From the NCBI GenBank assembly GCA_002706765.1, contig PAJV01000033.1:26377-90376 (forward strand): a stretch of DNA of 64,000 nt, written 5' to 3'. The stretch is from Gimesia sp. (GTDB lineage Bacteria; Planctomycetota; Planctomycetia; Planctomycetales; Planctomycetaceae). This document shows, piece by piece, positions 3,683-29,081 of this stretch. Positions within the stretch are counted from its first letter, which is position 1. Each line of letters opens with the position of its first letter. A program made the position numbers and the translations under genes. Below the pieces are notes generated by a model. That model had not been told where the DNA came from and ran no database searches. It saw only the letters and a program-made list of their open reading frames with translations.

Positions 3683-3869
3683 GGGTGATACCGGATGTAA
3701 TCCGGTATTGCCGCAGGCAACAGGAGGTGGCAGAGTGAGTGCTGCGTGAGGAATGAGCGTGCCCCATTTTGTTTGAATTATTAGAGTAGGTTGCTGTGTT
3801 GTGAATTGTTAATTTGAGCTGCGACCTCCTGCTCGCTACGCTCGGCCCGAATTGCATTCGGGCCCACCC
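3683..3869 (+). repeat. 187-bp dispersed inverted-end repeat, copy A
   Basis: The element starts 20 bp after the oxidoreductase stop codon. Left arm 3684-3733 and right arm 3819-3868 are imperfect inverted repeats of each other, matching at roughly two thirds of 50 positions, with the strongest block around CAGGAGGT/ACCTCCTG. Each arm holds its own small hairpin (CCGGATGTAATCCGG on the left, CCCGAATTGCATTCGGG on the right). This organisation resembles a MITE or REPIN. The centre of this copy is diverged from copies B, E and F. No coding capacity is seen. Confidence 0.85.
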
Positions 3870-3921
3870 ATGATGTTTACCAATGATGTTTGCCCATGTT
3901 GTTTACCCATAATGTTGATAC
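3870..3921 (+). repeat. Four 13-bp tandem repeat units
   Basis: Immediately after repeat copy A are four degenerate 13-bp units: ATGATGTTTACCA, ATGATGTTTGCCC, ATGTTGTTTACCC and ATAATGTTGATAC. They end 15 bp before the esterase start codon, so they lie in its 5' leader. Copy-number variation here could alter leader length. No known binding motif was recognised. Confidence 0.6.
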
Positions 3922-3936
3922 TGTTTGGGAAGTGAG

Positions 3937-4803
3937 ATGTTTTCGAAACGGTTTTTGAACAATCTGATGAGTGCTGGCCTGATGGTGGGGCTGTCGCTGT
4001 CTGCCTCTGTGGTGAGTGCTGCTGAGTTGGTAACTGAGGAACTCTTTCCGCGGATTGTTGCGGTTTCGTTTGAAAGTGCGAGTTTGAAAAAACGGAAGCG
4101 GGCGGTCGTCGTGTTGCCTGCAGAGTGGTCATCGATCAAACCTGCAGAGCGACGGACGCTGGTCATCCTGCATGGGCGCGGGCGGCATGAGCGATCGCTG
4201 ATTGATGACAAGCTGGTCCGCCAGCAGTTGCTCGATTCGGGACTGTTTATCATTCTGCCGGACGGCGATGATGGCTGGTACATCAATTCGCCGCTGCGCA
4301 AGCAGGATGTGTATGAAACGTATCTGGAAGAGGTGCTGGCGATGGTCTCTCAACAGTATGAACTGCCGACATCACAAAAACAGTGGGCGATTGCCGGTTG
4401 GTCGATGGGGGGCTTTGGCTGCGTGCGTTTTGCTGAACGGCATCCCGGGCGGTTTGCCGCGGTGAGTTCAATCATCGGTCTGCTCGATTTTCCGCGCACG
4501 GGATTACCGGAAGGGCAGTCTTACAAAGTGCCCCTTGATCGTTTCGGTGCAGATGAAGCAGTGTGGAGAAAGTTTAATCCGCTCCATGACACGGAAAAGC
4601 TACGCGGGGCATCGGTACTGATCATCACGGCTGATAATGCCTTTGACCGCACGATGAATGAACATTTTCGCGACCGGCTGGTTGAGCTGAAACTGCCTCA
4701 CGAGTATGTGGAACTCAAAGGCGGGCACACATTCCCGGTAGTGAGGGCAGCGATACCGCTGGTGCTGGCGCATACGAAGCGCGTGCTGGCTGCAGGGCAG
4801 TAA
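3937..4803 (+). CDS. Secreted alpha/beta hydrolase, putative esterase
   Basis: The product is 288 residues from the ATG at 3937; a TTG four codons upstream is possible. It has a signal peptide (MFSKRFLNNLMSAGLMVGLS... cleaved near VVSAA). The alpha/beta hydrolase fold is marked by LVILHGRGRH (oxyanion region, about residue 75), the nucleophile elbow GWSMGG (about residues 155-160), an acid strand VLIITADN and a late histidine in ELKGGHTFPV. The nearest recognised group is the esterase D/putative esterase family. Location is probably periplasmic or extracellular, acting on acyl esters, possibly of polysaccharides (inference). It stands alone between repeat copies A and B. Confidence 0.85.
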   Translation: MFSKRFLNNLMSAGLMVGLSLSASVVSAAELVTEELFPRIVAVSFESASLKKRKRAVVVLPAEWSSIKPAERRTLVILHGRGRHERSLIDDKLVRQQLLDSGLFIILPDGDDGWYINSPLRKQDVYETYLEEVLAMVSQQYELPTSQKQWAIAGWSMGGFGCVRFAERHPGRFAAVSSIIGLLDFPRTGLPEGQSYKVPLDRFGADEAVWRKFNPLHDTEKLRGASVLIITADNAFDRTMNEHFRDRLVELKLPHEYVELKGGHTFPVVRAAIPLVLAHTKRVLAAGQ

Positions 4804-4821
4804 TTGTTTCCACGACACCGA

Positions 4822-4980
4822 CCGCGGGCAATAGGAGGTGGCAGTGTAGACGATGTGGAGAGTACGTGTGCCTCAAGCTCACTTATTATCGAAGAAGTTG
4901 TCTGCTCTATTGTAAAACGATAGCGTGAGCTGCGACCTCCTGCTCGCTGCGCTCGGCCCGAATTGTATTCGGGCTTACCC
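4822..4980 (+). repeat. 187-bp dispersed repeat, copy B (left end eroded)
   Basis: The copy starts inside the left arm, where the first hairpin is lost but AGGAGGTGGCAG is kept, and has the central segment (GAGAGTACGTGTGCCTCAAG, then GTAAAACGATAGCGTGAGCT) and the complete right arm ending GGGCTTACCC. It begins about 19 bp after the esterase stop. The remaining bases up to the SGNH gene (4981-5117) are pyrimidine-rich and show no gene. Confidence 0.85.
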
Positions 4981-5117
4981 CCTGATCTATATTCTGTCCT
5001 ATTATTTTGTCCTATTCTGTTTTCTGTGTTGTATCGTCGTTGTGTTCTTGTGGTCCGTCTCTGAATCTGGCTATGATAAATTTACATTATTAATCACCAA
5101 GCTTAATTTCCCTGCCA

Positions 5118-7499
5118 GTGAGTCCTGCCGTGAAAAATGTGATTCACGTACTGCTGTCTGTTGTTGTCTGGTCTCTGGTTTCTACTATCTGTGCTGAGGA
5201 ATCGGAGACAGTGCAGAATCTGCTCCAGAATCCCCAGTTTGGATTGCGGAACTCGGCTGACCCGGAGCCCGGTCGATCGATCCTCTGCTGGAATACCGAT
5301 CGCTGGGGAGACGTGATGAGAGGGAACAGAGACGAAAAACTGAAGCCCAAGCCGTTTAGCAATGTGGTAGAGATTCTGCCAGGCAAGCGGATCTGGCAGT
5401 TTGCGACGCTGCCTGAACTGGAGCTTAAGTCGGGCGATACTGTCAGTCTATCGGTCAACGGGTATCAGGAACAGAGCGGGGCACTCCAGACGCGTCTCTG
5501 CCTAATGCTTATTGAAAGTTCTGAGGGACAGTGGTCGCCGGCGGACTTCGGGATGCCCGACAAGCGCACGTTTGCAAAGCACGGACGGGGGGAACTCGTC
5601 CGATCGTCGCAGTTGGAGACTTCGTCACAGGAGACGGAAAAAGAATTTGAGTTGCAGCTGAACGGACTCAAGATCGATCCCCGGTTTAAAGAGCAGCTCG
5701 AATCGGATGCTTCATTTCGCAATGTGGTAGGCGTGCTGGTTGAATTTGTGAATAATTCTGACAAGCGGGTCTGGGTGAACTCCCCCGCACTGGTCAAAGG
5801 GGAAACTGCCGCGAAGACAGCACCGACCACGTCCCGCGCACTCCCCGATCTGTATCAGAAGATTCCCCGCACGATGCAGAAGCTGACTACGGGAAAGCCG
5901 ATTTCGATCCTGACGCTGGGGTCGAGCATCGACAGGGGGAGTGCGAATCCGCGGCTCTATTTTTATAATGAAGATCCAGCGAGCCCGCATTATAAGGAAC
6001 CGTTGATTGAAGCTCGACCGGGTAATCCGGAGGTGATGAAACGTCTGATCGCAGAACGCTTGGGGCGGCCCGATCTGCAGGATTATGTGGGCTGGTCACA
6101 GCACTATTTCATGTGTACGGGACGACTGCGGCGGGAACTGCTGCGGAAGTTTCATTATCCGGTCGACAGGATGTTGCTGAACGTGATGGCCTGCGATGGA
6201 TCGTCGATCGGCGAATCGCATAGCGGTTTCAAAGCATACGCAGAACTGGATCTTCCGCCGAATCCGAATGACAATGGACATCCGGCCGGGAAGACATGGC
6301 TGGAGCTGTACCCATACGGGTCGTGGCATAAAAGGTTTCCCGGGTTTTATCCGAATGCGAAATATTCGGGGCCGGACCTTGTGATCTTCGGACATGGTCA
6401 CAATGAGCATATTGATCGGCCGGATGAAATTGCCGCCTATGAAGGGGCGATCCGTTGGTTTCAGCGACACTATCCGGGTGTGGAGTTTGTCTCCTGCATG
6501 TGGATTCGGGATAAGGGGCATCCGAATTCGATGACCGAGCCGATGCAGAAGCTGTGTGAGTATTATGGTATTCCATTTGTGGACATGGGGCAGTTGATCT
6601 TCGATCTGAAAAAGACCAGCAATTATTTTGCGATGGCTCCCGATGGTGGGCATCCTGCCGCCGGCAGTCATTATCTCTGGTTTAAACAGCTGGAGCAGGT
6701 GTTTGAAATACCTTACTCTGGACCTTATCTGTCGGCGATAAACTCTGCAGATTATATACCGTCGGGAATTTCCCAAAAGCAACTCCCCGTGCGGATGAAT
6801 GTGTTTGCGCGGAACTGGGAAGGGGAGATGGTCCGCTTTGAGAAGGACAGCCCGCGGATTGTAGACGGGCGAATGATGATCCTGGAAGACGCGGCGTTTA
6901 ATCTCTGGGCGGATAATAAACAGGAGATGATGCGGTTGCTAATCGACGGTCAGCCGGTAGAGAATGCGGGGCATGGCCGCCACAGTTTCACAGTTCCGAA
7001 TCTGCGGAATTCGACGTTCGTGCATGGACGGCTGGCGCGCGGTGATCGGCACATTATCGAGATTCCGAATTCGAGTGCGCGGCTGATTGCCGTGGACTGT
7101 AAGGTGGGATTGAACCGTCGGTTCTATGGTGTGGATGCGAAGGGCTGGCAGGGGGCCTCTACGGTGCAGGAATTCCAATCAAAGTGGGGAGCACCGTATG
7201 AAGAGCAGGCGTTCCAACTGCAGCCGGGAGAGACTCTGGAGATTGACGTCGAGGCGGATGAGCTGTCGATCGTCTGGCTGGATGATTCGGCCGGAGGAAC
7301 GCTGGTGGCAGAGGTGGATGGCAAGCTGGCCTGGTCACAGCCGACGAATCAGCCGTTTACCGATTCGCAGGATCGGACCCATTTTATTGAAAACCGTCGT
7401 GGCGTGCTGGGGCTGCCGTTCGGGAAGCATCGGATTCGATTACAGGCAGCAGGAGAGTCGGTCCGTGTGATCGGGGTGTTTGGTTATGACGGGCGGTAA
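5118..7499 (+). CDS. Large secreted SGNH/GDSL-type hydrolase
   Basis: The product is 793 residues from a GTG; no ATG is available upstream of the signal peptide. The signal peptide (VIHVLLSVVVWSLVSTICAEE) precedes a beta-rich region at about residues 40-240 that begins NLLQNPQFG, a form common in carbohydrate-binding modules. The hydrolase core at about 255-540 contains ISILTLGSSIDRGS (block I Ser), NVMACDGSS, DLVIFGHGHNEH (block III Asn position) and a terminal PDGGHPAAGSH with Asp/His of the triad. The C-terminal about 250 residues are beta-rich and unrecognised. It is probably a carbohydrate esterase or acyl hydrolase acting outside the cytoplasm. It lies alone between repeat copies B and C. 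Confidence 0.8.
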   Translation: MSPAVKNVIHVLLSVVVWSLVSTICAEESETVQNLLQNPQFGLRNSADPEPGRSILCWNTDRWGDVMRGNRDEKLKPKPFSNVVEILPGKRIWQFATLPELELKSGDTVSLSVNGYQEQSGALQTRLCLMLIESSEGQWSPADFGMPDKRTFAKHGRGELVRSSQLETSSQETEKEFELQLNGLKIDPRFKEQLESDASFRNVVGVLVEFVNNSDKRVWVNSPALVKGETAAKTAPTTSRALPDLYQKIPRTMQKLTTGKPISILTLGSSIDRGSANPRLYFYNEDPASPHYKEPLIEARPGNPEVMKRLIAERLGRPDLQDYVGWSQHYFMCTGRLRRELLRKFHYPVDRMLLNVMACDGSSIGESHSGFKAYAELDLPPNPNDNGHPAGKTWLELYPYGSWHKRFPGFYPNAKYSGPDLVIFGHGHNEHIDRPDEIAAYEGAIRWFQRHYPGVEFVSCMWIRDKGHPNSMTEPMQKLCEYYGIPFVDMGQLIFDLKKTSNYFAMAPDGGHPAAGSHYLWFKQLEQVFEIPYSGPYLSAINSADYIPSGISQKQLPVRMNVFARNWEGEMVRFEKDSPRIVDGRMMILEDAAFNLWADNKQEMMRLLIDGQPVENAGHGRHSFTVPNLRNSTFVHGRLARGDRHIIEIPNSSARLIAVDCKVGLNRRFYGVDAKGWQGASTVQEFQSKWGAPYEEQAFQLQPGETLEIDVEADELSIVWLDDSAGGTLVAEVDGKLAWSQPTNQPFTDSQDRTHFIENRRGVLGLPFGKHRIRLQAAGESVRVIGVFGYDGR

Positions 7500-7564
7500 G
7501 AACCACTAAAGGCTCGAAATTTCTTTCTACCATGAAAAGTACGAAAAATTGTTGCCGCTGCTTC

Positions 7565-7644
7565 GTTGCTCTGTGGTGAAAATTCTTCTTGAGCTGCAGT
7601 TTCCTGCTCGCTGCGCTCGGCCCGAATTGTATTCGAGCCCACCC
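7565..7644 (+). repeat. 187-bp dispersed repeat, copy C (right half only)
   Basis: Only the right half remains: GTTGCTCTGTGGTGAA, then GAGCTGC..TCCTGCTCGCTGCG and CCCGAATTGTATTCGAGCC, ending ACCC. The left half is absent. It starts 65 bp after the SGNH gene stop and precedes the sigma factor transcription unit. Confidence 0.8.
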
Positions 7645-7652
7645 AGGGATAT

Positions 7653-7675
7653 TTTTACAAGTGTTTGTTGTAAAA
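7653..7675. promoter_or_regulatory. Inverted repeat upstream of the ECF sigma gene
   Basis: TTTTACAA (7653-7660) and TTGTAAAA (7668-7675) are perfect 8-bp inverted arms separated by 7 bp, about 145 bp before the sigma factor start. This could be an operator or part of a promoter region, or the degenerate remnant of a hairpin. No family was recognised. The rest of 7676-7820 shows no gene. Confidence 0.25.
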
Positions 7676-7820
7676 TGTCTTATGTGAATTCTTTGGGCCT
7701 CTTCTCGTCGAAAAAATATCTTTTTATCAGAAACTGCGTTAGATTAGGTCTTGTTGATCTAATGAACTGATAGAGGACGAATTCAATCGATCGGAGTTTC
7801 CGCGGAGAAGGGCCTTTGTT

Positions 7821-8348
7821 TTGTCGGATTGTGATCTGGATGAAGAATATGTCGCGTTGATTGCCGGATGTCAGCCTGCGGTGCGGGGACTGTTGAGGGC
7901 GCTGATTCGTCGGGCTCCCGATGTCGATGATGTACTGCAGGAGACGAATACCGTGCTCTGGCGGAGGCGGCAGGAATATGATCGGGATCGACCGTTTCTT
8001 CCCTGGGCCTGTCGCATCGCGCAGTTGCAGACACTGGCATTTTTCAAACGGGTGCGCAATCACGGTCAGTCGACTGTAGACGAACAGACGCTGGAACAGA
8101 TTGCTGCCGTCGCTACCAGCAGGGCGGTGGAGACACATGCTCACACTGCCGCGCTGATGCATTGCATGGAAAAGCTGCCTCTCGAACACCGACAACTGGT
8201 GGAGAGCCGCTACTGTGATGCGATGCCTGTGATCCAGATTGCTTCGCAGGCAGGCCGCTCGGCGGATGCGGTTTCCATGACTTTATATCGAATTCGAAAA
8301 ACGCTCATGGAATGTATTCAAAAGCGGGTGGCCCGGGAGGCACAGTGA
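7821..8348 (+). CDS. ECF-type RNA polymerase sigma factor (planctomycete family)
   Basis: The product is 175 residues from a TTG; no ATG or GTG is usable upstream of the conserved region. Region 2 is ALIRRAPDVDDVLQETNTVLWRR with the WACRIAQLQTLAFFKR segment, and region 4 is the C-terminal helix-turn-helix (LPLEHRQLVESRYCDAMPVIQIASQAGRSADAVSMTLYRIRKTL). This matches the Planctomycetes/Verrucomicrobia ECF subfamily. The gene overlaps the next by one nucleotide (stop TGA at 8346-8348, next ATG at 8348), so sigma factor and FecR-domain partner are translationally coupled. Confidence 0.93.
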   Translation: MSDCDLDEEYVALIAGCQPAVRGLLRALIRRAPDVDDVLQETNTVLWRRRQEYDRDRPFLPWACRIAQLQTLAFFKRVRNHGQSTVDEQTLEQIAAVATSRAVETHAHTAALMHCMEKLPLEHRQLVESRYCDAMPVIQIASQAGRSADAVSMTLYRIRKTLMECIQKRVAREAQ

Positions 8349-14864: not shown

Positions 14865-14928
14865 TTTCCGAATATCTCGAAACATTTCTACGACGAAAAG
14901 CACGAAAATTTCTGCAGGGAATGAAAGT

Positions 14929-15068
14929 GGGTGGTAACGGATGTAATCCGATATTGCCGCAGGCAACAGGAGGTGGCACAGCAGACGATGCGGAGCGTGG
15001 GTGTACCTCAAGCTCTTTTATTCGAGAAAAAAAGGGTTGCTCTGTTGTGAATTGATTTCGTGAGCTGG
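14929..15068 (+). repeat. 187-bp dispersed repeat, copy D (right end truncated)
   Basis: The left arm is complete (GGTGGTAACGGATGTAATCC, then ATTGCCGCAGGCAACAGGAG) with a diverged centre (CCTCAAGCTCTTTTATTCG, GTTGCTCTGTTGTGAATTG). The element stops after GTGAGCTGGGA, where the right arm is replaced by unrelated sequence. It begins 65 bp after the DUF1501 stop codon. Confidence 0.8.
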
Positions 15069-15080
15069 GAACTAGAGAAC

Positions 15081-15184
15081 GCATCACATTCGCATCACAT
15101 TTCACCACAGCGTCGCTTAATTAGCCCCGGTTCCTTTTGCCCTGGAGACGCTACAGTAAAACGGGACACAGTCCGGGGCGAATT
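15081..15184. repeat. Short direct repeat and inverted repeat after copy D
   Basis: GCATCACATTC and GCATCACATTT are adjacent direct repeats (15081-15102). Further on, AATTAGCCCCGG (15119-15130) and CCGGGGCGAATT (15173-15184) form an 11-of-12 inverted repeat enclosing 42 bp. These may be remains of another small mobile element inserted at the broken end of repeat copy D. The remaining 15185-15424 has no gene; an A8-9 run and a TTTTTTT run are the only notable features before the second sigma factor. Confidence 0.45.
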
Positions 15185-15424: not shown

Positions 15425-15940
15425 ATGATTACAGAAGAATTTATATTAAATGTCACAGAGTGCCAGGGACAACTTTACAGTTATATTTTGTCGTTGACTG
15501 GTAACAGTGATATTGCGCGCGATCTTCTGCAGGAAACCAATAAAAGTATTCTGGAAAAAGTCTCTGATTATACGCCGGGGACCTCGTTTTCTGCCTGGGC
15601 TTCAAAGATCGCTTTTTTCAAGGTCCTGTCTTTTCATCGTGACAGACAGCGGGAGCCGATGCTGTTCAGCGTAGAGCGGTTGCGAGAGATCTCTCAAAAA
15701 ACGTTATCCAGAAATCAGGAATACGATCGACGTCTTGACTTCCTGTTTCAATGTATTGAGCAGTTGCCCGACGACAAGCAGAAGCTGTTGAGGCAGCGTT
15801 ACGAGCAGGATCTCCCGCTGGAGGAACTCGCCAGTCTATGGGGAAGGACCTACAACGCCACGGCCGCTTTGTTGTATCGTGTCCGATTGACTTTGATGGA
15901 CTGTGTCAATAAATCACTCAAACTGGAGAAACAGATATGA
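15425..15940 (+). CDS. ECF-type RNA polymerase sigma factor (planctomycete family)
   Basis: The product is 171 residues from an ATG. Region 2 is LTGNSDIARDLLQETNKSILEKV with FSAWASKIAFFKVLSFHRDRQRE. Region 4 is LPDDKQKLLRQRYEQDLPLEELASLWGRTYNATAALLYRVRLTLMDCV. It has the same subfamily organisation as the sigma factor at 7821, though sequence is clearly diverged. Its stop overlaps the FecR gene start (ATGA at 15937-15940), which indicates translational coupling. Confidence 0.93.
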   Translation: MITEEFILNVTECQGQLYSYILSLTGNSDIARDLLQETNKSILEKVSDYTPGTSFSAWASKIAFFKVLSFHRDRQREPMLFSVERLREISQKTLSRNQEYDRRLDFLFQCIEQLPDDKQKLLRQRYEQDLPLEELASLWGRTYNATAALLYRVRLTLMDCVNKSLKLEKQI

Positions 15941-17259
15941 GTGATTCCGCGCAGGAGCAGCAGGCGCTTCAGGGAGATGAACTGGGGAAACTGATTTCAC
16001 TCCATCTGGACAGTCGAATTACAGAGGAACAGTTTGCTCAATTACAGTACACGCTTGAAGTAGATGAATCGGCGCGAGATTTTTATATCGAGTTCCTGTC
16101 GACTCATGCCAGGCTGGAACAAAGCCTGAAAAATACCTTCTCGATCAAAAATCAGAATCACATTTCGGATCGAGAGCTGTTGAATGAACTTGTAGCAACA
16201 GGCAGGCAGCCTGCCAGAGGAACCTACTTCCTGTCTGGGGGACTGGCAGTTGCATTAGTAATAGCGATCTGTTTCCTGGTCCTGAAACAGGATGCTCCCG
16301 GTTATGCGACAGTGACCCATGTCGCCCAGGCAGAGACCCGTGACCAGATTCCCCTGGGGATTGGCAGTCAGTTAAAAACGGAAGTGCCTTACATCCTGGA
16401 GCAGGGAGAACTGGAACTCTTGTTTGTAACGGGGACGAAAGTTTTCATAACCGCTCCTGCCACCTTTGAAATTTCAGGGGAAAATGAAATACATATCTCC
16501 GCAGGAAAGCTGATTGCCAGAGTGTCTACTCCGGCAGGTAAGGGATTCATCGTCCAGACTCCTGGAGGGGCAGTGGTTGATCTGGGGACCCTGTTTGGTG
16601 TCGAGATCGAACCTTCGGGAGACGCCGGAGTGCAGGTGTTTCAAGGCGAAATCGAGCTGCATGATCTGCAGGGCGGGAAAGCAGTTCTTCCCGCGGGAAA
16701 AACCATGCGCTGCGTGGCAGGCAGTAAAAAGTGGGAGGCGGCTGAAAAACTTTCTCGTCAGTTTTATGCGGCATTGCAGGTAAAAAGACAAACGCTTCTG
16801 CCTGGCATGGTCATGATTGATGATTCCCGACAGAGCATCTTTGGAATCGATGATTACCGGGGAATTCGATATCTCCTGTATTCAAAAATTCCGCTGAAAG
16901 CGCGACTGGACGCGCGCGAGACTCGATTGCCGGAATGGGATGGAGTGGCGCAGCATCTATGGATGGTCCATTTTGACGAAACCGCTCAGCGGTGGTTGCT
17001 GCAGGGCAATGAGCGGGCCATACCGTTCGAGCCGGATTCTACCGATCTGTTACTGGCGCGTATTGAAGAAGCGGATGCGGATGGCAGTTCCAACAGGAAA
17101 AACATTACTTATTTTTCGCAAACCTTTGATGCCATTCATGGCATCGCGAGTGGATACCAGGCAAGCGATATCAAAGTCCTTCCGGACTGGTTTGAGAAGA
17201 ATGCAAACAGTGGAGATTATGCGATTACGGGGTCTTATTTAATTCGTAAGCCGGAATAG
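15937..17259 (+). CDS. FecR-domain putative anti-sigma protein
   Basis: The product is 440 residues. Residues 1-85 are a cytoplasmic region with acidic helices, probably contacting the sigma factor; the membrane helix is at about 96-114 ([20 protein letters not shown]). The FecR domain occupies about 125-270 ([54 protein letters not shown]). The C-terminal about 160 residues are unrecognised and do not resemble the LamG-like module of the other FecR protein, so the two loci probably respond to different cues. Anti-sigma function is inferred from coupling to the sigma gene. Confidence 0.82.
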
Positions 17260-17359
17260 TCTGAATTTCTATCAATGGAAATTCTGGCTGGCATTCATAT
17301 TTATTAATGAATGGCTTTGCGATATTTATTTTTCTTCTGATATTGAAAGTGGTGATATT

Positions 17360-18334
17360 ATGAATTTAGAACGTCCGATACAAAAGCGAAACGGTTTTAC
17401 GCTGATTGAATTACTGGTAGTAATTGCCATTATTGCGATCCTGATTGCCTTATTGCTCCCGGCAGTGCAACAGGCAAGGGAAGCGGCGCGACGGAGTACG
17501 TGTAAGAATAATCTGAAACAGCTCGGGCTGGCGATGCATAATTACCACGAAACATTCCGCGTTTTCCCTCCCGGGGCAATTGCTCCTTCTACCAACTGCA
17601 CCACGCTGATGCCCACGGTTGCCTCCCGTACAATTCTGAACCATACGGCTTACCAGATGATGTTGCCTTACATTGAGCAGACCGCGTTATACAACAAATA
17701 TAATTTCTCTTTGCCCAGTGGAACTTCATATTACACCAGTGCTTCAGGTTGTTCGGCAACGCAGCCGACGACAGATCAGCTTTCTGTGGTGAGTTCACAG
17801 GTGCCTGTCTTTGTCTGTCCCTCAGATGCCGGTCCATCGAAGGGAACAGCCAACCATGCGTTTTCCCAGGCCATCGGTGCCTATCGAACCAGTTATGGAT
17901 TAGTCTCACATCAGAATGACGGTTCCTGGAACAAAAACTGGGAAGCAGACACGAATATTGCGAAGGGAATCTGGGGACCCAATGGTGCAGCCCGTATTCG
18001 TGATGTGATTGATGGAACCAGCAATACCGCAGCGATGGTGGAAGCGCCGTTTCAGAAGAAAACCGCTGAAGCCTGGACCGGTCCGTACTGGAATGCTTAC
18101 ACCTACATCTACTGGATTGATATCTATGGCACCAATACCGGTATCAATAATATCGTTGCTGATACACCCATTTCCGGTGTAGGTCGAAATGGTGCTGGCA
18201 GCTCACACGTGGGCGGTGCGCATCTGCTCCTGGTGGATGGCGCGGTTCGATTCGTCAGTGAAAATGTGGATCAGAACTCTGTGCTGAATGCGCTGGCTTC
18301 TGCCAAGGGAGGCGAGATCTTAGGCGATTTCTAA
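17360..18334 (+). CDS. DUF1559 prepilin-like protein
   Basis: The product is 324 residues. It has a type IV pilin/type II secretion N-methylation motif ([20 protein letters not shown], cleavage after Gly at about residue 12), a hydrophobic helix, then [32 protein letters not shown], the hallmark of the planctomycete DUF1559 family. The C-terminus has the H-X9-DG motif ([16 protein letters not shown]). The family is greatly expanded in planctomycetes and probably forms pseudopilus or surface-fibre subunits processed by a prepilin peptidase. It follows the sigma/FecR pair by 100 bp and may be its target. Confidence 0.92.
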
Positions 18335-18471
18335 TCTGGTTTTTCCTGTTTCTATTCACGGCCAATCCCGGACTTTCTACGTGAGAGCCGGGGTTGCGAC
18401 CGTTATTCAAAAATATGCTGACTGCGGTGCTGGTTGCATTCGCAGACTGATTTCTCAAAGGACCGTTACCG

Positions 18472-18894
18472 ATGAACTGTTTTTTAACTTCCCGCTGGAA
18501 GTGTCTTTGCCTGGTCAGTCTGTTGTTTGCAGGTTGCTCATCGGCTCCCCAGGATATGCCCGACGTCGCGCCGGTAAGCGGAACTGTGACATTGGACGGC
18601 AATCCTCTGCCTTATGCAACGATTGTCTTTCAGCCGACTGATGGGCGACCCTCCAACGGACAGACTGATGCGGAAGGGAAGTACGATCTGCATTTCAATC
18701 AGGATACCATGGGTGCAGAACTGGGATCACATCAGGTGATTATCACGACGTATCGGGAATTCGATCACCCCAGTGATTCCAACGTGAAAGCTTCGCCGGA
18801 ACTGTTGCCCGCGAAATATCATTCGAAAAGTGAATTGACGGCAACCGTTGAACCCGGGGGGAATGAAATCTCCTTCGATCTGAAATCAAAATAG
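18472..18894 (+). CDS. Small lipoprotein with carboxypeptidase-regulatory-like domain
   Basis: The product is 140 residues. The lipoprotein signal peptide ends in LFAGC (lipobox, Cys about 22). The mature part is a transthyretin/carboxypeptidase-regulatory-like beta-sandwich: VSGTVTLDGNPLPYATIVFQP, TDAEGKYDL, GSHQVIITT. Planctomycetes commonly encode such a protein next to DUF1559 genes. It is probably anchored in a membrane facing the periplasm. The function is unknown; linkage to the pseudopilin gene suggests a shared surface role. Confidence 0.85.
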   Translation: MNCFLTSRWKCLCLVSLLFAGCSSAPQDMPDVAPVSGTVTLDGNPLPYATIVFQPTDGRPSNGQTDAEGKYDLHFNQDTMGAELGSHQVIITTYREFDHPSDSNVKASPELLPAKYHSKSELTATVEPGGNEISFDLKSK

Positions 18895-21774: not shown

Positions 21775-23139
21775 ATGGTCAGTGAACAACTTACAGCATA
21801 TGACTGGAAACGGTTTCCGGAAACGGCTGCTTTTTTACATCAACGGATTACCGGGTTCTGCAAACGTTCCGCATTGATTCAGGAATTTGCCGATCAACTG
21901 CAGTTCAAAACCGGAACACGGTTGTCTGACTGGGTAGACCATCTGGAACTGAACTGGTCCGATGCGTTGCAGCAGCAACTGGTTGAATTGGGATATGTTG
22001 TTCTGGAAGGGGCGAAAACTCCCCTGTATCAGCATCCCGATGCGATGTTTCCCGCGATCCAGGCCAGTGATGCAGAAGTGGAGCGTCTGTTTGTTCGCGT
22101 GGAATCGGTGGCGGACTTTTTAACCATTCATCAATGTAAGCTGGAACTGCCCATCACGGGTGAAATCGGTGCCGCAGTCCGTCAGCGTGTTGTGATCGCA
22201 GAAAATGGACTCGAACTGCATGTGATCGAGCGACATGGTGCGCCGATTTTCGCAGCAGAAGTCCCTGAAGCTGATGTGCAACATTTGTGGAAACACGCCG
22301 AAGCGTTTCAATTACGCAGACGCCATTTCGACGATGAGCTTGCCGGCTTTGCGGAAGCGGAAACTCTGATCAAAGCGGCTATCGACGATCTGGGAGTCGA
22401 CCGGACCTGTGATCTGTTCTTTGCAGCCGAACGCGCATACTGGCAGCAGCGGAATGGTGTAGCGCGGATTCAGAAGGCACGTCAGGATTCCATGGGCATG
22501 GGGTGGGCGAATCACGATCATCATACCTATCGTTCCAGTCGCAAACATTTCGCGCGGCTGATTTCCGTACTGGAACTGCTGGGGTTCGAATTAAGGGAAC
22601 GTTTTTATGCAGGCCGGGAAGCCGGTTGGGGCGCACAGGTACTGGAACAGCCAGCCGCGCGGATCGTGATCTTTGCCGATGTGGATCTGTCGCCGGAAGA
22701 AGTCTCGCAGGACTTCGCGCATGAACCACTGCCCGCATTGAAACAACTGGGAACGGTGGGGCTCTGGTGTCGCCTGCATGGAGAAGCCTTTCTGCAGGCG
22801 GGCATGCATCACCTGGAATGCCAGTTCGACTTTGACGCCGCCCGGGAACAACTGGCTGAGAAAAATGCCGTCAAGACAATGAAGCCCTTTACGGATCTGC
22901 CTCATCTCAAGCAGGCGTTTACCGCGGGAGAAGTCTGGCCTGTTGAGGAATCTCGGATTGAGTCACTGCTGAAAGAGGGCTCAATCAATGAAGAAGCAGC
23001 CGACCGCTTTCGACTTCAGGGCGCCATTGGTTCGCATCTGGAAATACTGCAGCGCGAAGAAGGATTCAAAGGCTTCAACCAGACCGGCATCAACGAGATC
23101 ATTCTGGAAACCAATCCGCTGAATCAGCAGCAGAAATAA
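21775..23139 (+). CDS. DUF1338/HglS-like VOC-fold protein, putative 2-oxoadipate dioxygenase/decarboxylase
   Basis: The product is 454 residues. Residues 1-240 are unrecognised. The C-terminal half aligns by eye with DUF1338 motifs: DHHTYRSS (from residue 248) resembles DHFAFRTF, GFELRERFYA resembles the following GY..REEL strand, HGEAFLQAGMHHLECQF resembles NGYALNHVTISV, and SHLEILQREEGF..INEIILET resembles SYIEFAER..GF..ADKIFEST. Predicted metal ligands are H249, H346 and E423. HglS-type enzymes convert 2-oxoadipate to 2-hydroxyglutarate in lysine catabolism. The gene is divergent from saccharopine dehydrogenase and ALDH7-type genes, which fits that step. The match is distant and was made without a search. 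Confidence 0.6.
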   Translation: MVSEQLTAYDWKRFPETAAFLHQRITGFCKRSALIQEFADQLQFKTGTRLSDWVDHLELNWSDALQQQLVELGYVVLEGAKTPLYQHPDAMFPAIQASDAEVERLFVRVESVADFLTIHQCKLELPITGEIGAAVRQRVVIAENGLELHVIERHGAPIFAAEVPEADVQHLWKHAEAFQLRRRHFDDELAGFAEAETLIKAAIDDLGVDRTCDLFFAAERAYWQQRNGVARIQKARQDSMGMGWANHDHHTYRSSRKHFARLISVLELLGFELRERFYAGREAGWGAQVLEQPAARIVIFADVDLSPEEVSQDFAHEPLPALKQLGTVGLWCRLHGEAFLQAGMHHLECQFDFDAAREQLAEKNAVKTMKPFTDLPHLKQAFTAGEVWPVEESRIESLLKEGSINEEAADRFRLQGAIGSHLEILQREEGFKGFNQTGINEIILETNPLNQQQK

Positions 23140-23157
23140 CGGTCTGCACTACTGTTT

Positions 23158-24999
23158 CTATCTGATTTGTTCCCGCAGGCGATCCATATGGGGCAGCGGG
23201 CCTTGAGGATTGGCAGACTCGGCCCAGCCCAGTCCTCCCTGATGCGCTTTGAGCTCCCAGTCATTGGCGGCACAATAATCTTTCAGTTCCTGTTCCGTCG
23301 GAAATCGGGCGATCAGCACGGGCGCACGCCGATCAACGAGCAGCACGGTGGGCAGCGCGGCAAACTGCATGCGGTACAGAGTCGCCGGTTCGAATTGGTC
23401 TGTGATAAATGTTGCCTGGGAGACGCGCGGGAACTTCAGTTCTTTCAGCTGACCAGCTTCAGCCATGGATTCTTGGGGGAAATCCCAGGGAAAGGCGTTG
23501 GTCTGAATCTGATACAGGCAGAACAGCGGCCCGAGTAAAGACAGGCTCAAGAGTATTCCCAGACGCTTGGGTTGCGAACGCGGTGCAGCTGATTTGGAAA
23601 CGTTCGAAGTGCAACAAAGTGCAAAGCCAAGCAGACAGAGTGCCGCCGGAGCGATGTGCAGCAGCAGGCGATTCATGGAGGTCGAAACATGCCAGTACGG
23701 ATTGTACGGAGTCAGCAGATAGACGGCGTAATAACCGCCCAGCTGAAACCCCACCGCTACCAGTAAACGCGGCAGCCGATGCTGACGCCAGAAAAAATTA
23801 ACCAGAAACAGCACTGCGATCGACCAGAGCAGAATCGCCTCGGTTTTCCAGTCAAGCAGTACGTTCCACAACTGGCTCCAGATAACCTGATGCCATTCGG
23901 GAGATTCCACCTGATCAAGGCGGATCAGCAACCCATAGGGATTCATAAAGACTTCGGGCTGGATGACCTGACTGATTTCAAAGGCCCGCTGTGGTTCGAT
24001 TAAATCATTGGGTGGTGCGAGGCTGGCTTTGAACCAGATCAGAAACACAAGCGGAATCGCAGCTCCTTTGAGCAGGGAAGGCAGCATTGAAGCATTCGAT
24101 TCAGGTGGTGCTTCAATGTCAGGTGGTTGCAGGAAAGCATGGCTGAGTTTGATCAGAATCAGGGAAACCAAGCAGGCGAGCATCCAGAGCTGACCCTCAT
24201 TTTTGACCAGGGTCGACCAGGCCACCACGAAGCCGAAACAGGACCATGCCAGTCGCTGTGGATGAGTGGCCGCGTAGTGATACCAGGCGAGCGAAGCGAG
24301 AATCGCATAGGCGAGCATGAAGTCGAGTGATTTGACGGCGTGCAGGTAGATCAGAAAGGGAGTGCTGAGGATGACAGCCAGTGTGAAGGCAGCCCACAGA
24401 GAAGATTTTCTTTCGAGTGCCTCCCACCAGCCGGTGAGAATGAGAGTGAAGCCGCTGAAGCAGGGGATGGTGAGGGCGGCGACCGCCAGTGAGGAACTGC
24501 TGCCATCCAGGCTCCAGAGCGGAACCAGCGCCCAGGAGAACAACGGCGGGTAATCGGGGTGGAGCAGGGCCAGGTCATTGCTGAAGCCCTGCGTCCACAT
24601 CGCGCCGCCATCGACAAGGAAGCGGGCCCGCATGATCCAGGTAAACATCGGGTCCCAGCTCCCCCACGGAACGCGCGTGTGAACCAGTACGGAAACGCCG
24701 CATTCGGCGAGCACTGTTAATAGAAGGATCCAGAGTACCGGTGAAGGAAGCGAGACAGGTAATTTCTCCACAGTCTGCATGCGAAAGAGGTAATACAACA
24801 TCCCAGCAAACAGCAGGAGCAAGGGAATCAACGACGACAGCCCGAGCAGTGTCTGCAGTAGACCACTGATTCCCAGCAGCGAAACCCAGGCAATCGGCAG
24901 ACTGCCCCAGGTAAGCAGACGCGCCGCTGCCGGCACGCGGCGAAAGACAATCAGCCCCGCAATACTGTAGAACAGGAGTGTGATAATCAATGAAATCAT
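23158..24999 (-). CDS. Polytopic membrane glycosyltransferase-like protein
   Basis: The product is 613 residues from an ATG. About ten to twelve hydrophobic segments are visible, beginning MISLIITLLFYSIAGLIVF. A periplasmic loop early in the protein contains WDPMFTWIMRARFLVDGGAMW and NDLALLHPDYPPLFSW, a pattern of the dolichyl-phosphate-mannose/GT-C (PMT-like) mannosyltransferases, where an early loop Asp is catalytic. The C-terminal about 120 residues are soluble (FITDQFEPATLYRMQFA, TEQELKDYCAANDWEL). Probable role is transfer of a lipid-linked sugar on the outer face of the cytoplasmic membrane. It is convergent with the DUF1338-like gene and has no other partner. Confidence 0.75.
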   Translation of the reverse strand: MISLIITLLFYSIAGLIVFRRVPAAARLLTWGSLPIAWVSLLGISGLLQTLLGLSSLIPLLLLFAGMLYYLFRMQTVEKLPVSLPSPVLWILLLTVLAECGVSVLVHTRVPWGSWDPMFTWIMRARFLVDGGAMWTQGFSNDLALLHPDYPPLFSWALVPLWSLDGSSSSLAVAALTIPCFSGFTLILTGWWEALERKSSLWAAFTLAVILSTPFLIYLHAVKSLDFMLAYAILASLAWYHYAATHPQRLAWSCFGFVVAWSTLVKNEGQLWMLACLVSLILIKLSHAFLQPPDIEAPPESNASMLPSLLKGAAIPLVFLIWFKASLAPPNDLIEPQRAFEISQVIQPEVFMNPYGLLIRLDQVESPEWHQVIWSQLWNVLLDWKTEAILLWSIAVLFLVNFFWRQHRLPRLLVAVGFQLGGYYAVYLLTPYNPYWHVSTSMNRLLLHIAPAALCLLGFALCCTSNVSKSAAPRSQPKRLGILLSLSLLGPLFCLYQIQTNAFPWDFPQESMAEAGQLKELKFPRVSQATFITDQFEPATLYRMQFAALPTVLLVDRRAPVLIARFPTEQELKDYCAANDWELKAHQGGLGWAESANPQGPLPHMDRLREQIR

Positions 25000-25119
25000 G
25001 TCAGTCAGTGTAACGCGGACGGCGATGGTTTCAAAACGAAATCTGTCTTCCGTTTTCTTCTAACAGAGTCGGTACGAAAAGATACAAAAGTTTCCGGTTT
25101 GATATGCTGGGGAGAACTT

Positions 25120-25306
25120 GGATGGTACCGGATGTAATCCGGTATTGCCGGAGGCAACAGGAGGTGGCAGTGCAGACTGCGTGGAGAGTACGTGTGCCTC
25201 AAGCTCACTTGTTATCGAATAAGTTGGCTGCTCTATGGCAAAACGATAGCGTGAGCTGCGACCTCCTGCTCGCTGCGCTCGGCCCGAATTGCATTCGAGC
25301 CCACCC
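25120..25306 (+). repeat. 187-bp dispersed repeat, copy E
   Basis: A complete copy, with GGTACCGGATGTAATCCGG on the left, the conserved centre GAGAGTACGTGTGCCTCAAG and GCAAAACGATAGCGTGAGCT, and right arm to GAGCCCACCC. It lies in the divergent region between the glycosyltransferase-like gene and the BlaI gene. It is the left boundary of the BlaI/M56 unit, with copy F in the same orientation on the right. The other bases of 25000-25364 show no gene. Confidence 0.88.
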
Positions 25307-25364
25307 ACGGTTGACGCGCAGACTCTGTTTTATAGGCGAAGTTTACCACCGGCAAAAGAAAAAA

Positions 25365-25414
25365 GACAAATGTCGTGATAATTTAATTGACAAAAAGACA
25401 AATGTCGTTATTAA
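25365..25414 (+). promoter_or_regulatory. Two BlaI-type operators with embedded promoter
   Basis: GACAAATGTC appears twice, at 25365-25374 and 25397-25406, each inside the longer direct repeat AAAAAGACAAATGTCGT. The GACA-N2-TGTC form matches the dyad layout of BlaI/MecI operators (TACA-N2-TGTA). A good -35 TTGACA lies between them (25387-25392), and a -10-like TATTAA (25409-25414) follows at 16 bp. The first codon of blaI is at 25422. A repressor bound to both sites would cover the promoter, so autoregulation is likely. Confidence 0.7.
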
Positions 25415-25421
25415 TGGGGGT

Positions 25422-25832
25422 ATGAACCAACACAAAGCTAAAATTCCGGATGCGGAACGTGATGTCCTGGCCTGTCTGAATCGACTGGGTGAGGCAACCG
25501 TCAAAGAGATCAGTGAAGAACTGACGCCGACGCGGAAGCTGGAACCCTCGTCAGTGATGACGCTATTGAAACGACTCGAGTCCCGTAAGCTGGTCACGCG
25601 GCGGAAGGGAGACAAGGGGAAGGCGTTTGTCTTTCGCACGACTCCCGAATCGGTGCGAGCCTGTCGGCATCTGATGAATGATTTGTTTCAGAGTGTGTTC
25701 GGCGGAGATACGCTTTCCTTTATGGCTTCTTTTTTTGAAACGCGTAAACCTTCTGAAGAAGAGATTCAGCAACTGCAGCAACTGCTGGATGAAATGCGGT
25801 CTCCCGATACGAAACGCAAGAAAAAGGAATAG
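25422..25832 (+). CDS. BlaI/MecI/CopY family transcriptional repressor
   Basis: The product is 136 residues from the ATG at 25422, which sits just after the operators; longer in-frame readings run back through the repeat and are rejected. The N-terminal winged helix is ERDVLACLNRLGEATVKEISEEL, with TPTRKLEPSSVMTLLKRLESRKLVTRRKGDKGKAFVF as recognition helix and wing. The C-terminal helix (EEIQQLQQLLDEM) is the dimerisation part. Family members are inactivated by proteolysis after signalling by an M56/BlaR1 partner, which is encoded 5 bp downstream. Confidence 0.92.
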   Translation: MNQHKAKIPDAERDVLACLNRLGEATVKEISEELTPTRKLEPSSVMTLLKRLESRKLVTRRKGDKGKAFVFRTTPESVRACRHLMNDLFQSVFGGDTLSFMASFFETRKPSEEEIQQLQQLLDEMRSPDTKRKKKE

Positions 25833-25837
25833 AGCCG

Positions 25838-28801
25838 ATGCAAGAAGTTCTCAACCAGGCAGCCGGAGACTGGAGCAACTGGTTTCTGCATGCCAGTTGG
25901 CAGGCAGCGGTAGTAGCCGGGATCGTATTCCTGCTCTTACAGGTGACGAAGCGTTTTACCAGTGCCCCCTTCCGCTATGCGCTGCTGCTGATCGTGCTGT
26001 TGAAATTTGCGGTGCCTCCGTTTCTGGATCTGTCCACAGGCTTGATTACTCAATCTGCGAAATATTACTCGACAATTCGTAACACTGTTGTCAGTGATCC
26101 GCCGCAGATTTCTGTTGCGGAAAAGACGTCTTCTGTCACCAGCGTTGCTTCTGAAGCGAGTCCTTCAAATCGAATTTCCCCCACTGCAGGGAGTTCAGTT
26201 GATCCCGTATCGAGGAGTGACAGTGCAACAGTTCCCACGGTGGTTGAGGCATCGGAAACCGCTGCCGAGTTTCCTTGGTCGCTGTTGCTGATGTCTGTTT
26301 ATGCCTGCGGAATGCTGGTCTGCGGGGTTTTCTTAGTCCGCCGCTATCGAGCTATTTTACGGATCGTGCGATCAGGTGATATCCTGAATACTGGCGAACT
26401 ACATGCTGAAATGGTCCGTCTTTCCACACAGTTAAATATGAAAAAAATCCCGGCGTTGCGTATTTCTGATGAAACCGATGCGCCATTTGCAATCGGTGTT
26501 TTCCGGCCGAGCATTTTGTTTCCCCGACTTCTGGTAGAGTCTTTACACCCGGATCAGCGGGCGATTGTATTGGCGCACGAACTGGCTCACATCCGCCGAC
26601 GTGATTTACTGATGGGCTGGTTCGAGACAGTATTGAGCCTGGTCTGGTGGTTTCATCCGGGAATGTGGTGGTTGAAAAAATCGCTGCGGCAGACGCGCGA
26701 AGACTGCTGTGATGATCTGCTGCTGACTCATGGCCTGGCAAATCCAGAGCGGTATTGTGAAACACTGATTGATGCCGCAAGTCGCCAGTCTGTCAGGCTG
26801 GTGGAACCTCTTGTGCTGGGCTTTGTGCATCGTGAGCATCCCGTGGCGAGACGGATTCGCAGATTGATGGATCGTTCTCTGTTAAGAGTCGACCGCCTGC
26901 GTTTTTCCGCTTTGTGTGTGGTTTTGCTTCTGGCAGTTCTGATGTTACCTGGAATGCGTCCGCAACAGTTGCCAGTCAGTGAAACAAATCTGGCGTCCTC
27001 GGGTGTATGGATGAATCTTGATTTTCAGATAGATGCCGAAGAGACTGAAGCTGTCAAAAAATGCAATGAAATTGCCCAGTCTTATTTCAGTACAAAGAGT
27101 GACAAAAAGATCTTTGATCAACCAGAAACGCGTGAAGCACTGAAAGCAATTCTGCAGGAACGCCCGAATTTCTTTTATGCACAGCAGCTGCTGGGGACCT
27201 GGTATCGCAGGCACGGTGATCTCAAACGTTCCACCGCATTGCTGAATGCGGCACTGGCCAATGCGCCAGTTGTGCTCACGCAGAAATACCAGGCTGGTAA
27301 TGGTGCTCCGATGCAGGGTTTGGAAATTCCGCAGCTGGAAATTGAATGCAATCGTGTTCAGAATCACTCACTGGATCCCAGCTTGAAGCTGAAGTATGTG
27401 GACCTGCTGACCGATGCAGACGGCAATATCAAACTGCCCGTCTATGATACAGTGTATCGGATCACAACACTGGGCCATCCTTCAGGCTATTCGATAGAGA
27501 ATGATAATCTGGGCTGGTTTGAATCGCAGGCTACGAATGGCGTTTTGCCCGATGTCCTGGTCTGGAAGACCTGGTCACAGCCCCGGAATTTCTCGCGGAC
27601 TGCTGCTGAGTCCAATCTGCTCCGCAAAGCGAGGGGAACGGATACACTGCAACTGCAAACCGGAGGCAATACATACCAGGTTGGTGGAATCGCCCGTTGT
27701 GATGCGAACGGTCGTTTCAGTCTTGAAAACGGAAAAGGAGAGTCCATTTCGGAGCTGCCAACCGCATTGCCGAGCATTTCCAATGCGGCATTCATGGATC
27801 ATGCGATCATTGAACTGTCTGAACCAGTTGCTTCAATGTTTGAGATTGAAGAGATCAATGTTCTCGATTCACAGACGAAAATCCCGCTGCGAACATTTCA
27901 GGATGGCGCAGGGTTCACCTGGCCCAATGAGAAAAACTTTCATCTGTTTTCACTTTGGGACAAGCTGCCTGCGACTGTTGATCTGATCCTGAAAGTTTAT
28001 AATTTTCAAGAGGATTCCTTCCGTTCCAAAATACCGGCTCAGACTGGGGCTACGATTTCTGAGCAGGGACTTAACCTGAAAATCACCCATCTGATCGCCG
28101 GGAATCATGTTGGCTGGAGTTCTCGCGATGGATTTTATGGGGAGCCTCAAAGCCCAGGCAATACTTCCGAAGTGATGTTTGACATCACGGGGAACAGTCA
28201 GCTGAAGTTTTCGCTATGGGTTGTGACGAAAGAGGGTCGCAAACGGAATCTGAAGGAGGGGGGCTGGTTTTCTGCCGGAATGGGAAGTATGCCAATACGG
28301 ATCATGCTGCCTCTGGATGAGATTGACCACTTCGAAATGCGACCGTACGTGACGACGGAAACGATTTATTTTGAGAAGCTGCAACTGCCAACTCGTACCA
28401 GTGAATTAGCACAGACATTGCCTGAGATTGATTTCGCTATCGATGGCGAAGCACGCCAGTTTACCTCTGAGCTGTTCAGTCCATTGCGTGTTCATTTTAA
28501 AAGTCTGCCTGGTAAAGTGTATTCAGGCTGTAGCTGCAATCAGCTGGGGTATGAATTGATGGAACGTCCGCAGGAGCAGCGAGGCGTCGAGAGTAAATCA
28601 ACGGTGGAGTGGCATTATTTCGCGGCAATTGATTTGGAACATCGGTTGGAATATATTCTGACTCCCGGTTCCAAAATCAATGGGGGACAAGGTGCGTTTA
28701 ATTGTAGATCCAGCTGGGGGGAAGTGAGCGCCACATCGAAAGATGTACCTCTGGAACGTATTCAATCGGTGCGGTTACAGATCCTGCCGAAAAAAAACTG
28801 A
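25838..28801 (+). CDS. M56 family (BlaR1-like) membrane metallopeptidase with large C-terminal domain
   Basis: The product is 987 residues. N-terminal membrane helices include VVAGIVFLLLQV and FRYALLLIVLLKFAVPPFL. A cytoplasmic gluzincin domain has HELAH at H247-E248-H251 and TREDCCDDLLL as the expected third-ligand region. A last helix is near 350 (FSALCVVLLLAVLML). The remaining about 600 residues are extracytoplasmic and contain a tetratricopeptide-like stretch (FFYAQQLLGTWYRRHGDLKRSTALLNAAL) and beta-rich segments, not a penicillin-binding domain. By analogy with BlaR1, ligand binding outside triggers cleavage of the BlaI repressor encoded 5 bp upstream. The ligand is unknown. Confidence 0.88.
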   Translation: MQEVLNQAAGDWSNWFLHASWQAAVVAGIVFLLLQVTKRFTSAPFRYALLLIVLLKFAVPPFLDLSTGLITQSAKYYSTIRNTVVSDPPQISVAEKTSSVTSVASEASPSNRISPTAGSSVDPVSRSDSATVPTVVEASETAAEFPWSLLLMSVYACGMLVCGVFLVRRYRAILRIVRSGDILNTGELHAEMVRLSTQLNMKKIPALRISDETDAPFAIGVFRPSILFPRLLVESLHPDQRAIVLAHELAHIRRRDLLMGWFETVLSLVWWFHPGMWWLKKSLRQTREDCCDDLLLTHGLANPERYCETLIDAASRQSVRLVEPLVLGFVHREHPVARRIRRLMDRSLLRVDRLRFSALCVVLLLAVLMLPGMRPQQLPVSETNLASSGVWMNLDFQIDAEETEAVKKCNEIAQSYFSTKSDKKIFDQPETREALKAILQERPNFFYAQQLLGTWYRRHGDLKRSTALLNAALANAPVVLTQKYQAGNGAPMQGLEIPQLEIECNRVQNHSLDPSLKLKYVDLLTDADGNIKLPVYDTVYRITTLGHPSGYSIENDNLGWFESQATNGVLPDVLVWKTWSQPRNFSRTAAESNLLRKARGTDTLQLQTGGNTYQVGGIARCDANGRFSLENGKGESISELPTALPSISNAAFMDHAIIELSEPVASMFEIEEINVLDSQTKIPLRTFQDGAGFTWPNEKNFHLFSLWDKLPATVDLILKVYNFQEDSFRSKIPAQTGATISEQGLNLKITHLIAGNHVGWSSRDGFYGEPQSPGNTSEVMFDITGNSQLKFSLWVVTKEGRKRNLKEGGWFSAGMGSMPIRIMLPLDEIDHFEMRPYVTTETIYFEKLQLPTRTSELAQTLPEIDFAIDGEARQFTSELFSPLRVHFKSLPGKVYSGCSCNQLGYELMERPQEQRGVESKSTVEWHYFAAIDLEHRLEYILTPGSKINGGQGAFNCRSSWGEVSATSKDVPLERIQSVRLQILPKKN

Positions 28802-28894
28802 TTAAGGGTCTGAAAATCCAGCAGCCAGAAGTGTTCGTATTTGCTCTTTTATTGCTACCAGGAAAAAATTACGTAGATGTGCTGCAGAAAAAGC

Positions 28895-29081
28895 GGGCGA
28901 TACCGGATGTAATCCGGTATCGCCGGAGGCAACAGGATGTGTCAGTGCAGACGGTGTGGAGAGTACGTGTGCCTTAAGCTCACTTATTATCGAAGAGGTC
29001 GGATGCTCTATTGTAAAACGATGGCGTGAGCTGCGTTCTCCTGCTCGCTGCGCTCGGCCCGCATTACATTCTGGCTCACCC
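28895..29081 (+). repeat. 187-bp dispersed repeat, copy F
   Basis: A full-length copy of 187 bp starting 94 bp after the M56 stop. The left arm has GATACCGGATGTAATCCGG and a variant inner block (CAACAGGATGTGTCAG); the centre is GAGAGTACGTGTGCCTTAAG and GTAAAACGATGGCGTGAGCT; the right arm ends CTGGCTCACCC. It lies in the same orientation as copy E on the other side of the BlaI/M56 genes. The spacer 29082-29266 shows no gene. Confidence 0.88.

Follow-up and report, generated by a model that had tools for sequence, protein, structure and literature searches.

Why should copies of one short repeat stand between successive gene units of a bacterial chromosome, so that each interval appears to enclose a single unit? 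The question is raised by a 64,000-nucleotide stretch of the planctomycete Gimesia sp. (hereafter the window; contig PAJV01000033.1, here G000:C33:26377-90376, where G000 is the window's own genome of 7.90 Mb in 78 contigs). A preliminary description of this DNA picked out six copies, A to F, of a 187-bp repeat with inverted ends, and suggested that they might be terminators or insulators, mobile elements of the REPIN type (doublets of repetitive extragenic palindromic (REP) sequences that form a hairpin) or recombination joints of accessory modules. The comparisons described here, within the window and across related genomes, make it very probable that the repeat is a REPIN copied by the REP-associated tyrosine transposase (RAYT) of relatives, and that direct copies recombine. 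That the repeats mark boundaries is most likely a by-product; they look like bystanders and not like gene-boundary signals.

Results

Structure of the repeat

The element is about 180-190 bp long and consists of two inverted REP arms of unlike type on either side of a variable spacer of roughly 100 bases. The left arm, Q, comprises GGGTGG, an 8-bp stem with a 3-base loop that is mostly GTA, a second hairpin (TTGcCGcAGgCAA) and then CAGGAGGT. Read inward from its end, the right arm, C, comprises GGGTGG, an 8-bp stem with a loop that is mostly GCA, CGAGCGCAGCGAG and again CAGGAGGT; across the spacer, CAGGAGGT pairs with ACCTCCTG. This anatomy was read from seeds picked for their foot and stem, and the GGGTGG foot of both arm types is also present in an alignment of rows chosen by a sequence hidden Markov model (HMM). 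HMMs replaced a structure-based finder of units, whose noise was too high (39 hits, 19 in shuffled sequence).

Covariation was counted in 71 aligned copies, that is, 76 full-length HMM rows less 5 antisense matches to places already counted. Standard pairs filled 98.1% of the 2058 pair cells (shuffled mean 91.0), 154 cells were double-changed (38.8 in shuffles) and 14 of 29 pairs were changed on both sides (10.0 in shuffles); none of 500 shuffles was as high, and kinship among the copies inflates such counts. An earlier count, over 64 of these rows, agreed with this (98.1%, 13 pairs, 135 cells), and sliding the pair partners lowered pairing to 28-51%. The fold of copy E was better than that of shuffled sequence, both as DNA (z -2.95, 0 of 200 shuffles as good) and as RNA (z -2.97, 2 of 200), and a known structured RNA was rejected as an explanation, a search of Rfam at gathering thresholds having given no match in the window. 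Two inverted arms with a variable spacer able to form a hairpin, a GT[AG]G foot, an extragenic location and, in relatives, a RAYT gene flanked by the repeats are among the features by which a REPIN is recognized, and the present repeat has each of these.

A candidate transposase in relatives

PF01797 matched two genes of the own genome and was found in 14 of 17 genus genomes (53 matches in total); arms were sought around 30 of these matches. Q- and C-type arms lie on both sides of a RAYT of about 170 amino acids at four of the 30 loci (L103 in G005, L112 in G001, L115 in G010 and L119 in G008), and likewise in G021. Three copies of this RAYT score 123.9, 121.1 and 112.7 bits against NF047646 (REP_Tyr_transpos, cut-off 80). 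It also matches TnpA_REP (4er8, E 1.1e-5), and its score against NF033573 (IS200/IS605), 28.6 bits, is below the cut-off of 55. The protein carries HVH, the HUH motif, and NPVKKG, which fits the RAYT motif NP(L/V)(R/K)xG as given in the accessible part of PMC2817692. A close RAYT (72% or more) is present in 5 of the 17 genomes, namely G008, G001, G021, G005 and G010, in the last of which it is broken into two pieces.

The RAYT locus lies beside a response regulator that is itself found in 15 of the 17 genomes. The order REPIN-RAYT-REPIN occurs there in G001, G005, G010 and G021. REPINs are present at this locus without a RAYT in six further genomes: one each in G012, G009, G022 and G023, two in G008 and four in tandem in G000, those of G000 and G008 aligning with both ends. 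G007 has one Q arm further off, and no arm was found within the stretch of the locus examined in G002, G003, G004 and G011. Gene and repeat adjoin closely: in L119 (1963-1980) and L112 (1381-1398) the last residues of the RAYT and its stop codon are encoded in the adjoining REP hairpin, an overlap of 18 bases, and in G005, G010 and G021 the REP begins about 9-13 bases past the RAYT end. Loss of the RAYT by a clean deletion leaving a solo REPIN was considered and rejected: in G012 and G009 a single REPIN is left, and the place of the left REPIN and the RAYT is taken by other sequence.

Three side observations concern other RAYT genes or positions. The RAYT of G008 lies about 2.5 kb from the locus used in four relatives, at which G008 keeps two adjacent REPINs (L145, L119), and it may have moved. 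A different RAYT in G005 (L116:1158-2008) is flanked by another palindromic repeat family, of the GGGTCGACACATGGGTCGACCC type, and may represent a second RAYT-REP system of the genus. The weak RAYT of the own genome (L032:1346-2086) has CTGTCGG...CCGACAG palindromes on both sides (weak matches), and this palindrome often accompanies the C arm elsewhere.

GGGTGG ends that point outward, and the lack of a conserved gene in the interior, could also be features of miniature inverted-repeat transposable elements (MITEs), with GGGTGG as the terminal inverted repeats of a DDE transposase. However, each end has its own hairpin with a GTGG foot, the transposase among the repeats is of the HUH/Y1 type, and inspection by eye found no target-site duplication at A, E or F; such an origin is highly improbable.

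Distribution, location and orientation

Matches to the repeat were found in all 13 genus genomes searched, the own genome included, and in none of eight genomes of other families. The named matches to the repeat pattern came from two Planctomycetaceae metagenome-assembled genomes (8 of 9 stretches from HKST-UBA69, 1 of 9 from OFTM93), close records of the own genome having possibly been left out. The own genome has at least 51 matches to a 241-bp query (40 of 115 candidates scored), six rows being longer than 150 bp; the others mostly correspond to the right-hand approximately 50 bp and are embedded in other composite repeats. Contigs C45, C50, C58, C8, C16, C4, C34, C65 and C70 of G000 have repeat matches no more than about 550 bases from their ends, and the repeats probably broke this assembly. 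With up to three mismatches, the C-arm core pattern occurs 101 times in G008 and 92 times in G010, and the Q-arm core pattern 35 and 39 times, respectively; the arm patterns read backward, as a control, gave no match.

A systematic 2.0-Mb sample of G008 (100 stretches, searched with arm HMMs; home-made gene caller, 70% coding) contained 48 arms, none of them inside a called gene, and the reversed 2.0-Mb control contained none, so that the repeats cannot be put down to chance. These arms form 19 sites, of which 7 are in convergent, 6 in co-directional and 3 in divergent gaps, with 3 at stretch edges; the background gaps number 95, 482 and 167, respectively. Convergent gaps are thus enriched (7 of 16 placed sites versus 95 of 744, edge sites excluded; p 0.0022).

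In six syntenic regions, merging of near copies left 51 sites, a count that leaves out two plus-strand matches far left in G008 and three matches in G000 outside the window (two of them minus). All 51 lie on one strand, whatever the gene direction: 24 are co-directional with the genes and in the same sense, 5 are in co-directional gaps and opposite to transcription, 14 are convergent and 8 divergent. Among the 29 co-directional sites, 25 are closer to the upstream 3' end. Neighbouring C arms share their orientation in 53 of the 58 cases where they are at most 10 kb apart, compared with 17 of 41 at greater distances (100 of 101 positions). A replication-strand rule for orientation was tried and abandoned: the 42 C-arm clusters of G008, whose origin and terminus were placed from sampled GC skew, gave 13 minus and 11 plus on the right replichore, 10 minus and 5 plus on the left, and 3 ties.

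Sites that favour gene 3' ends and convergent gaps are also what would be expected if the repeats were transcription terminators or insulators, selected to separate units, and the strong RNA fold of copy E, the conservation of positions across species (see below) and a 13-pair stem with a T run on the minus strand of F point the same way. On the other hand, terminator-like matches are near chance (6 versus 3.8, 6 versus 4.9 and 0 versus 1.0 expected) and touch only two copies, F, with that stem, and B, with a 5-pair stem at its right end. Copy E sits 5'-5' in a divergent gap, the sites keep to one strand while the genes run both ways, and some relatives keep the gene order without any arm. A 3' bias is, moreover, general for REPs, to judge from the accessible part of PMC3733652. 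We consider it unlikely that the repeats are terminators or insulators by nature, as one suggestion of the preliminary description had it.

Inheritance of positions

The gene order around the window copies is conserved in G008, G010, G012, G009 and G005. Elements recur at five junctions, with an occupancy that varies by species (G005, for instance, has no element where the first gene meets the esterase), and both gene directions occur between copies. When 41 copies were placed on a tree, the junction label required 12 changes (20.7 when shuffled, 0 of 200 shuffles as low), which indicates that copy positions are mostly inherited. The genome label needs 24 changes (26.6 shuffled, 15 of 200 as low), or 25 on another copy tree (27.2 shuffled, 28 of 200 as low); grouping by genome is at most weak, except for copies B, E and F of the own genome. 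These form one clade (100/98) across two junctions, and the own-genome label needs 3 changes (1 of 500 shuffles as low).

G006, G023 and G004 keep the order FAD oxidoreductase-esterase-SGNH without any arm, and therefore the units do not depend on the repeats; no arm was seen beside the esterase in the stretches examined of G002 and G003. A clean empty site was sought, and the candidates were rejected: the gap of G023 failed to align with G021, and G006 compared with G001 gave near-empty sites only.

Recombination between direct copies

The esterase of interval A-B is shared by 15 of the 17 genomes; the two without it are the single-contig G012 and G024, which is 74% complete. At its place G012 keeps one repeat, the left flank of which corresponds to the first junction of G009, and the interior and right flank to the second. 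This hybrid identifies it as the product of recombination between direct copies, which deleted the esterase in G012; it is the one clean case. A gene for a 362-residue protein in G005, without a counterpart at this place in G009, has on both sides the same stretch of about 299 bp (flank and REPIN); this gene is likely to have been duplicated or swapped via the repeats.

The BlaI/M56 pair between copies E and F is bounded by REPINs only in G000 and G022, and between these two genomes BlaI is 98.5% and M56 87% identical, a sharp contrast within one gene pair. Nine other genomes have one BlaI/M56 homologue elsewhere (M56 53-59%), none of these nine loci having an arm within its 1.5-kb flanks. In G008 no homologue was found at the cut-off used, and the slot holds, between two REPINs, a gene for a 436-residue protein that we read as a putative oxidoreductase. 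Exchange of BlaI/M56 through the repeats is likely but unproved. One clean deletion supports the preliminary idea of recombination joints, and the difference between species in their REPIN-bounded modules lends it weaker support.

Alternatively, the repeats might be cassette recombination sites of an integron-like kind, evolved for module capture, each interval being a cassette. The single units between copies, the constant strand, the REPIN-bounded BlaI/M56 and the 299-bp repeat of G005 would suit this explanation, the comparison being one of gene order and strand alone. Yet the core gene order is conserved across species without shuffling, the genes between copies face both ways, copies occur genome-wide and around the RAYT, and the G012 event is what homologous recombination would be expected to give. 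Integron-like sites are quite improbable.

Copies and neighbouring genes in the window

The family HMM, with a model length of 180, defines three complete copies (A, E and F) and three truncated ones (B, C and D) in the window (Table 1). All six starts had been placed correctly, except for a shift of three bases at the start of C. The hairpins and the CAGGAGGT/ACCTCCTG block reported earlier are present with sequence changes: F has CAGGATGT and TTCTCCTG, B has TAGGAGGT, and D is without ACCTCCTG. The contents of the intervals are as reported, namely the esterase in A-B; a GDSL-like protein in B-C (22.2 bits, below the Pfam cut-off of 32.9); sigma, FecR, PSD1 and DUF1501 in C-D; and BlaI/M56 in E-F. 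Interval D-E spans 10 kb, and its genes lie on both strands.

All copies were said to keep one orientation relative to transcription. This is true of A-D and F, which come after plus-strand genes, but not of E, which occupies the divergent gap between BlaI and a minus-strand open reading frame whose 5' end faces it, nor of the 5 opposed co-directional sites counted above. That reading frame has no Pfam match and, among the compared relatives, an 80% counterpart in G008 alone. The block beside the truncated copy D, at 15425-18894, includes FecR and DUF1559 genes, neither of which has a close homologue at this place in the five compared relatives.

Table 1. Repeat copies and adjacent features in the window.
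Feature	Position	Strand	Remarks
REPIN copy A	3683..3868	+	HMM 1-180 of 180, complete; Q (left) hairpin 3688-3708; C (right) hairpin 3844-3864; left foot GTGA
Esterase (PF00756)	3937..4803	+	between copies A and B
REPIN copy B	4822..4979	+	HMM 29-180; left hairpin missing
ACGAAA leader, similar	about 7527-7548		left of copy C; by eye
REPIN copy C	7562..7643	+	HMM 99-180; right part only
ACGAAA leader, degenerate	14887..14909	+	left of copy D; by eye
REPIN copy D	14929..15085	+	HMM 1-151; right hairpin missing; followed by sigma/FecR/DUF1559 block in own genome
Open reading frame	23158-24999	-	5' end facing copy E
REPIN copy E	25120..25305	+	HMM 1-180, complete; divergent gap; left foot ATGG
BlaI/M56 pair	25422..28801	+	between copies E and F
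REPIN copy F	28895..29080	+	HMM 1-180, complete; left foot GCGA

A leader outside the repeat

Outside the REP heads, an ACGAAA repeat such as those left of C and D was found at a distance of 29-71 bases from the Q head in 30 of 64 copies, and of 18-40 bases from the C head in 7 of 64, many of the leader-bearing copies being related and hence not independent; it occurs in 26 of 20000 random 160-base windows. At one junction, G006 has the leader without a REPIN and G001 has the leader with one. The leader standing alone in G006 suggests that it may be a pre-existing target of REPIN insertion. A repeat of the ACCACGAAAGACACGAAA type, noted at L191, L237 and L250 and in the window at about 7527-7548 and 14887-14909, points at REP heads, 14 of 19 in the G008 sample lying within 300 bp of an arm; in G006 it is present by itself at a junction free of REPINs.

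Discussion

A mobile element of the REPIN type, one of the possibilities proposed at the outset, is supported by the structure, by the covariation and by the position of the RAYT gene among these repeats in relatives. The RAYT, a HUH/Y1 single-strand transposase, would be the most likely agent of copying, given its association with the repeats in relatives. The own genome seems to have lost this gene, and its copies are probably resident remnants altered by recombination and decay. From species to species, most copies are found at the same junctions. The direct orientation of neighbours would allow recombination to delete the gene between them, as seen once, and may also allow modules to be duplicated or swapped. 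The apparent marking of units would then follow from copies that lie only between genes, mostly behind stop codons, together with recombination.

Several points weigh against REPIN copying as the source of the repeats. A copying event itself was not observed. No close RAYT was found in the own genome (best match 29%), an absence that is not wholly certain because the assembly is in 78 contigs and repeats lie at contig ends. Degenerate sequences stand in place of GTGG at the left feet of A, E and F, and the failure to see a target-site duplication by eye at these copies counts here as well. The occupied sites of G001 and the near-empty sites of G006 differ by about 240-260 bp, which is more than one REPIN, and the B/E/F clade could reflect gene conversion as well as recent copying. 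The kinship that inflates the covariation counts also belongs here, as does the number of further pair types, which was not above that of shuffles (57 of 500 as high). Finally, clustered and co-oriented copies differ from the random extragenic spread of Pseudomonas REPINs reported in the accessible part of PMC3116915, a spread that we do not regard as a defining trait.

REPINs, RAYTs, tandem arrays and 3' bias have been described before (PMC3116915, PMC2817692, PMC3733652, PMC6006769 and PMC8049555, as far as their accessible parts go). According to such parts of PMC3116915, the REPINs of Pseudomonas fluorescens SBW25 likewise consist of two inverted REPs and a spacer forming one hairpin, are extragenic, lie near specific RAYT genes and also occur as tandem arrays of one orientation. 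The present repeats differ in their length of about 180-190 bp (71- and 110-bp spacings in SBW25), their two unlike arms and their local clusters with genes between. The E. coli REPs and bacterial interspersed mosaic elements served by TnpA_REP (PDB 4er8) share the hairpin with a GT[AG]G foot (PMC6006769, accessible part) and RAYT homology, whereas here the stems are different, the unit is longer and a cognate RAYT was not found in the own genome. The GTAG-tagged REP super-family, as available text of PMC3733652 presents it, shares the tetranucleotide foot (GTGG in most O. terrae GTAG-20 units), pairs in opposite orientation and a location between unidirectional and convergent open reading frames. 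The same text names Planctomycetes among the hosts but no single planctomycete species, and the likeness to the present family is one of description. IS200/IS605 elements share the HUH/Y1 transposase and subterminal hairpins; unlike them, the present repeats carry no transposase.

The family had at first not been recognized. Its type is known, and no published description of this planctomycete family was found in a search that left most subscription journals outside; it is a new REPIN family of a known type, whose RAYT was identified in relatives, while none was found in the own genome. As to the checks then proposed, the same REPINs accompany a RAYT in relatives, copies recur through the genus, and sites avoid genes and favour 3' ends, as reported for REPs in the accessible part of PMC3733652, contrary to the random placement that would have refuted the preliminary description.

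These genus-wide planctomycete REPINs, with a RAYT that is intact, broken or not found, make it possible to compare the behaviour of REPINs after loss of the transposase. They also carry a warning, as a pattern in which a repeat marks unit ends can arise without any terminator function. The G012 hybrid and the REPIN-bounded BlaI/M56 point to loss, and perhaps exchange, of genes between direct copies, for which no description was found for REPINs in the literature searched. We tentatively propose, with somewhat more doubt than conviction, that co-oriented REPIN clusters of this genus act as standing recombination slots in which the genes caught between direct copies are deleted, duplicated or exchanged, the repeats themselves long outlasting their RAYT, and that the ACGAAA repeat may aim insertion. 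If this is true, what began as a selfish repeat would drive the turnover of accessory genes in the manner of a cassette system.

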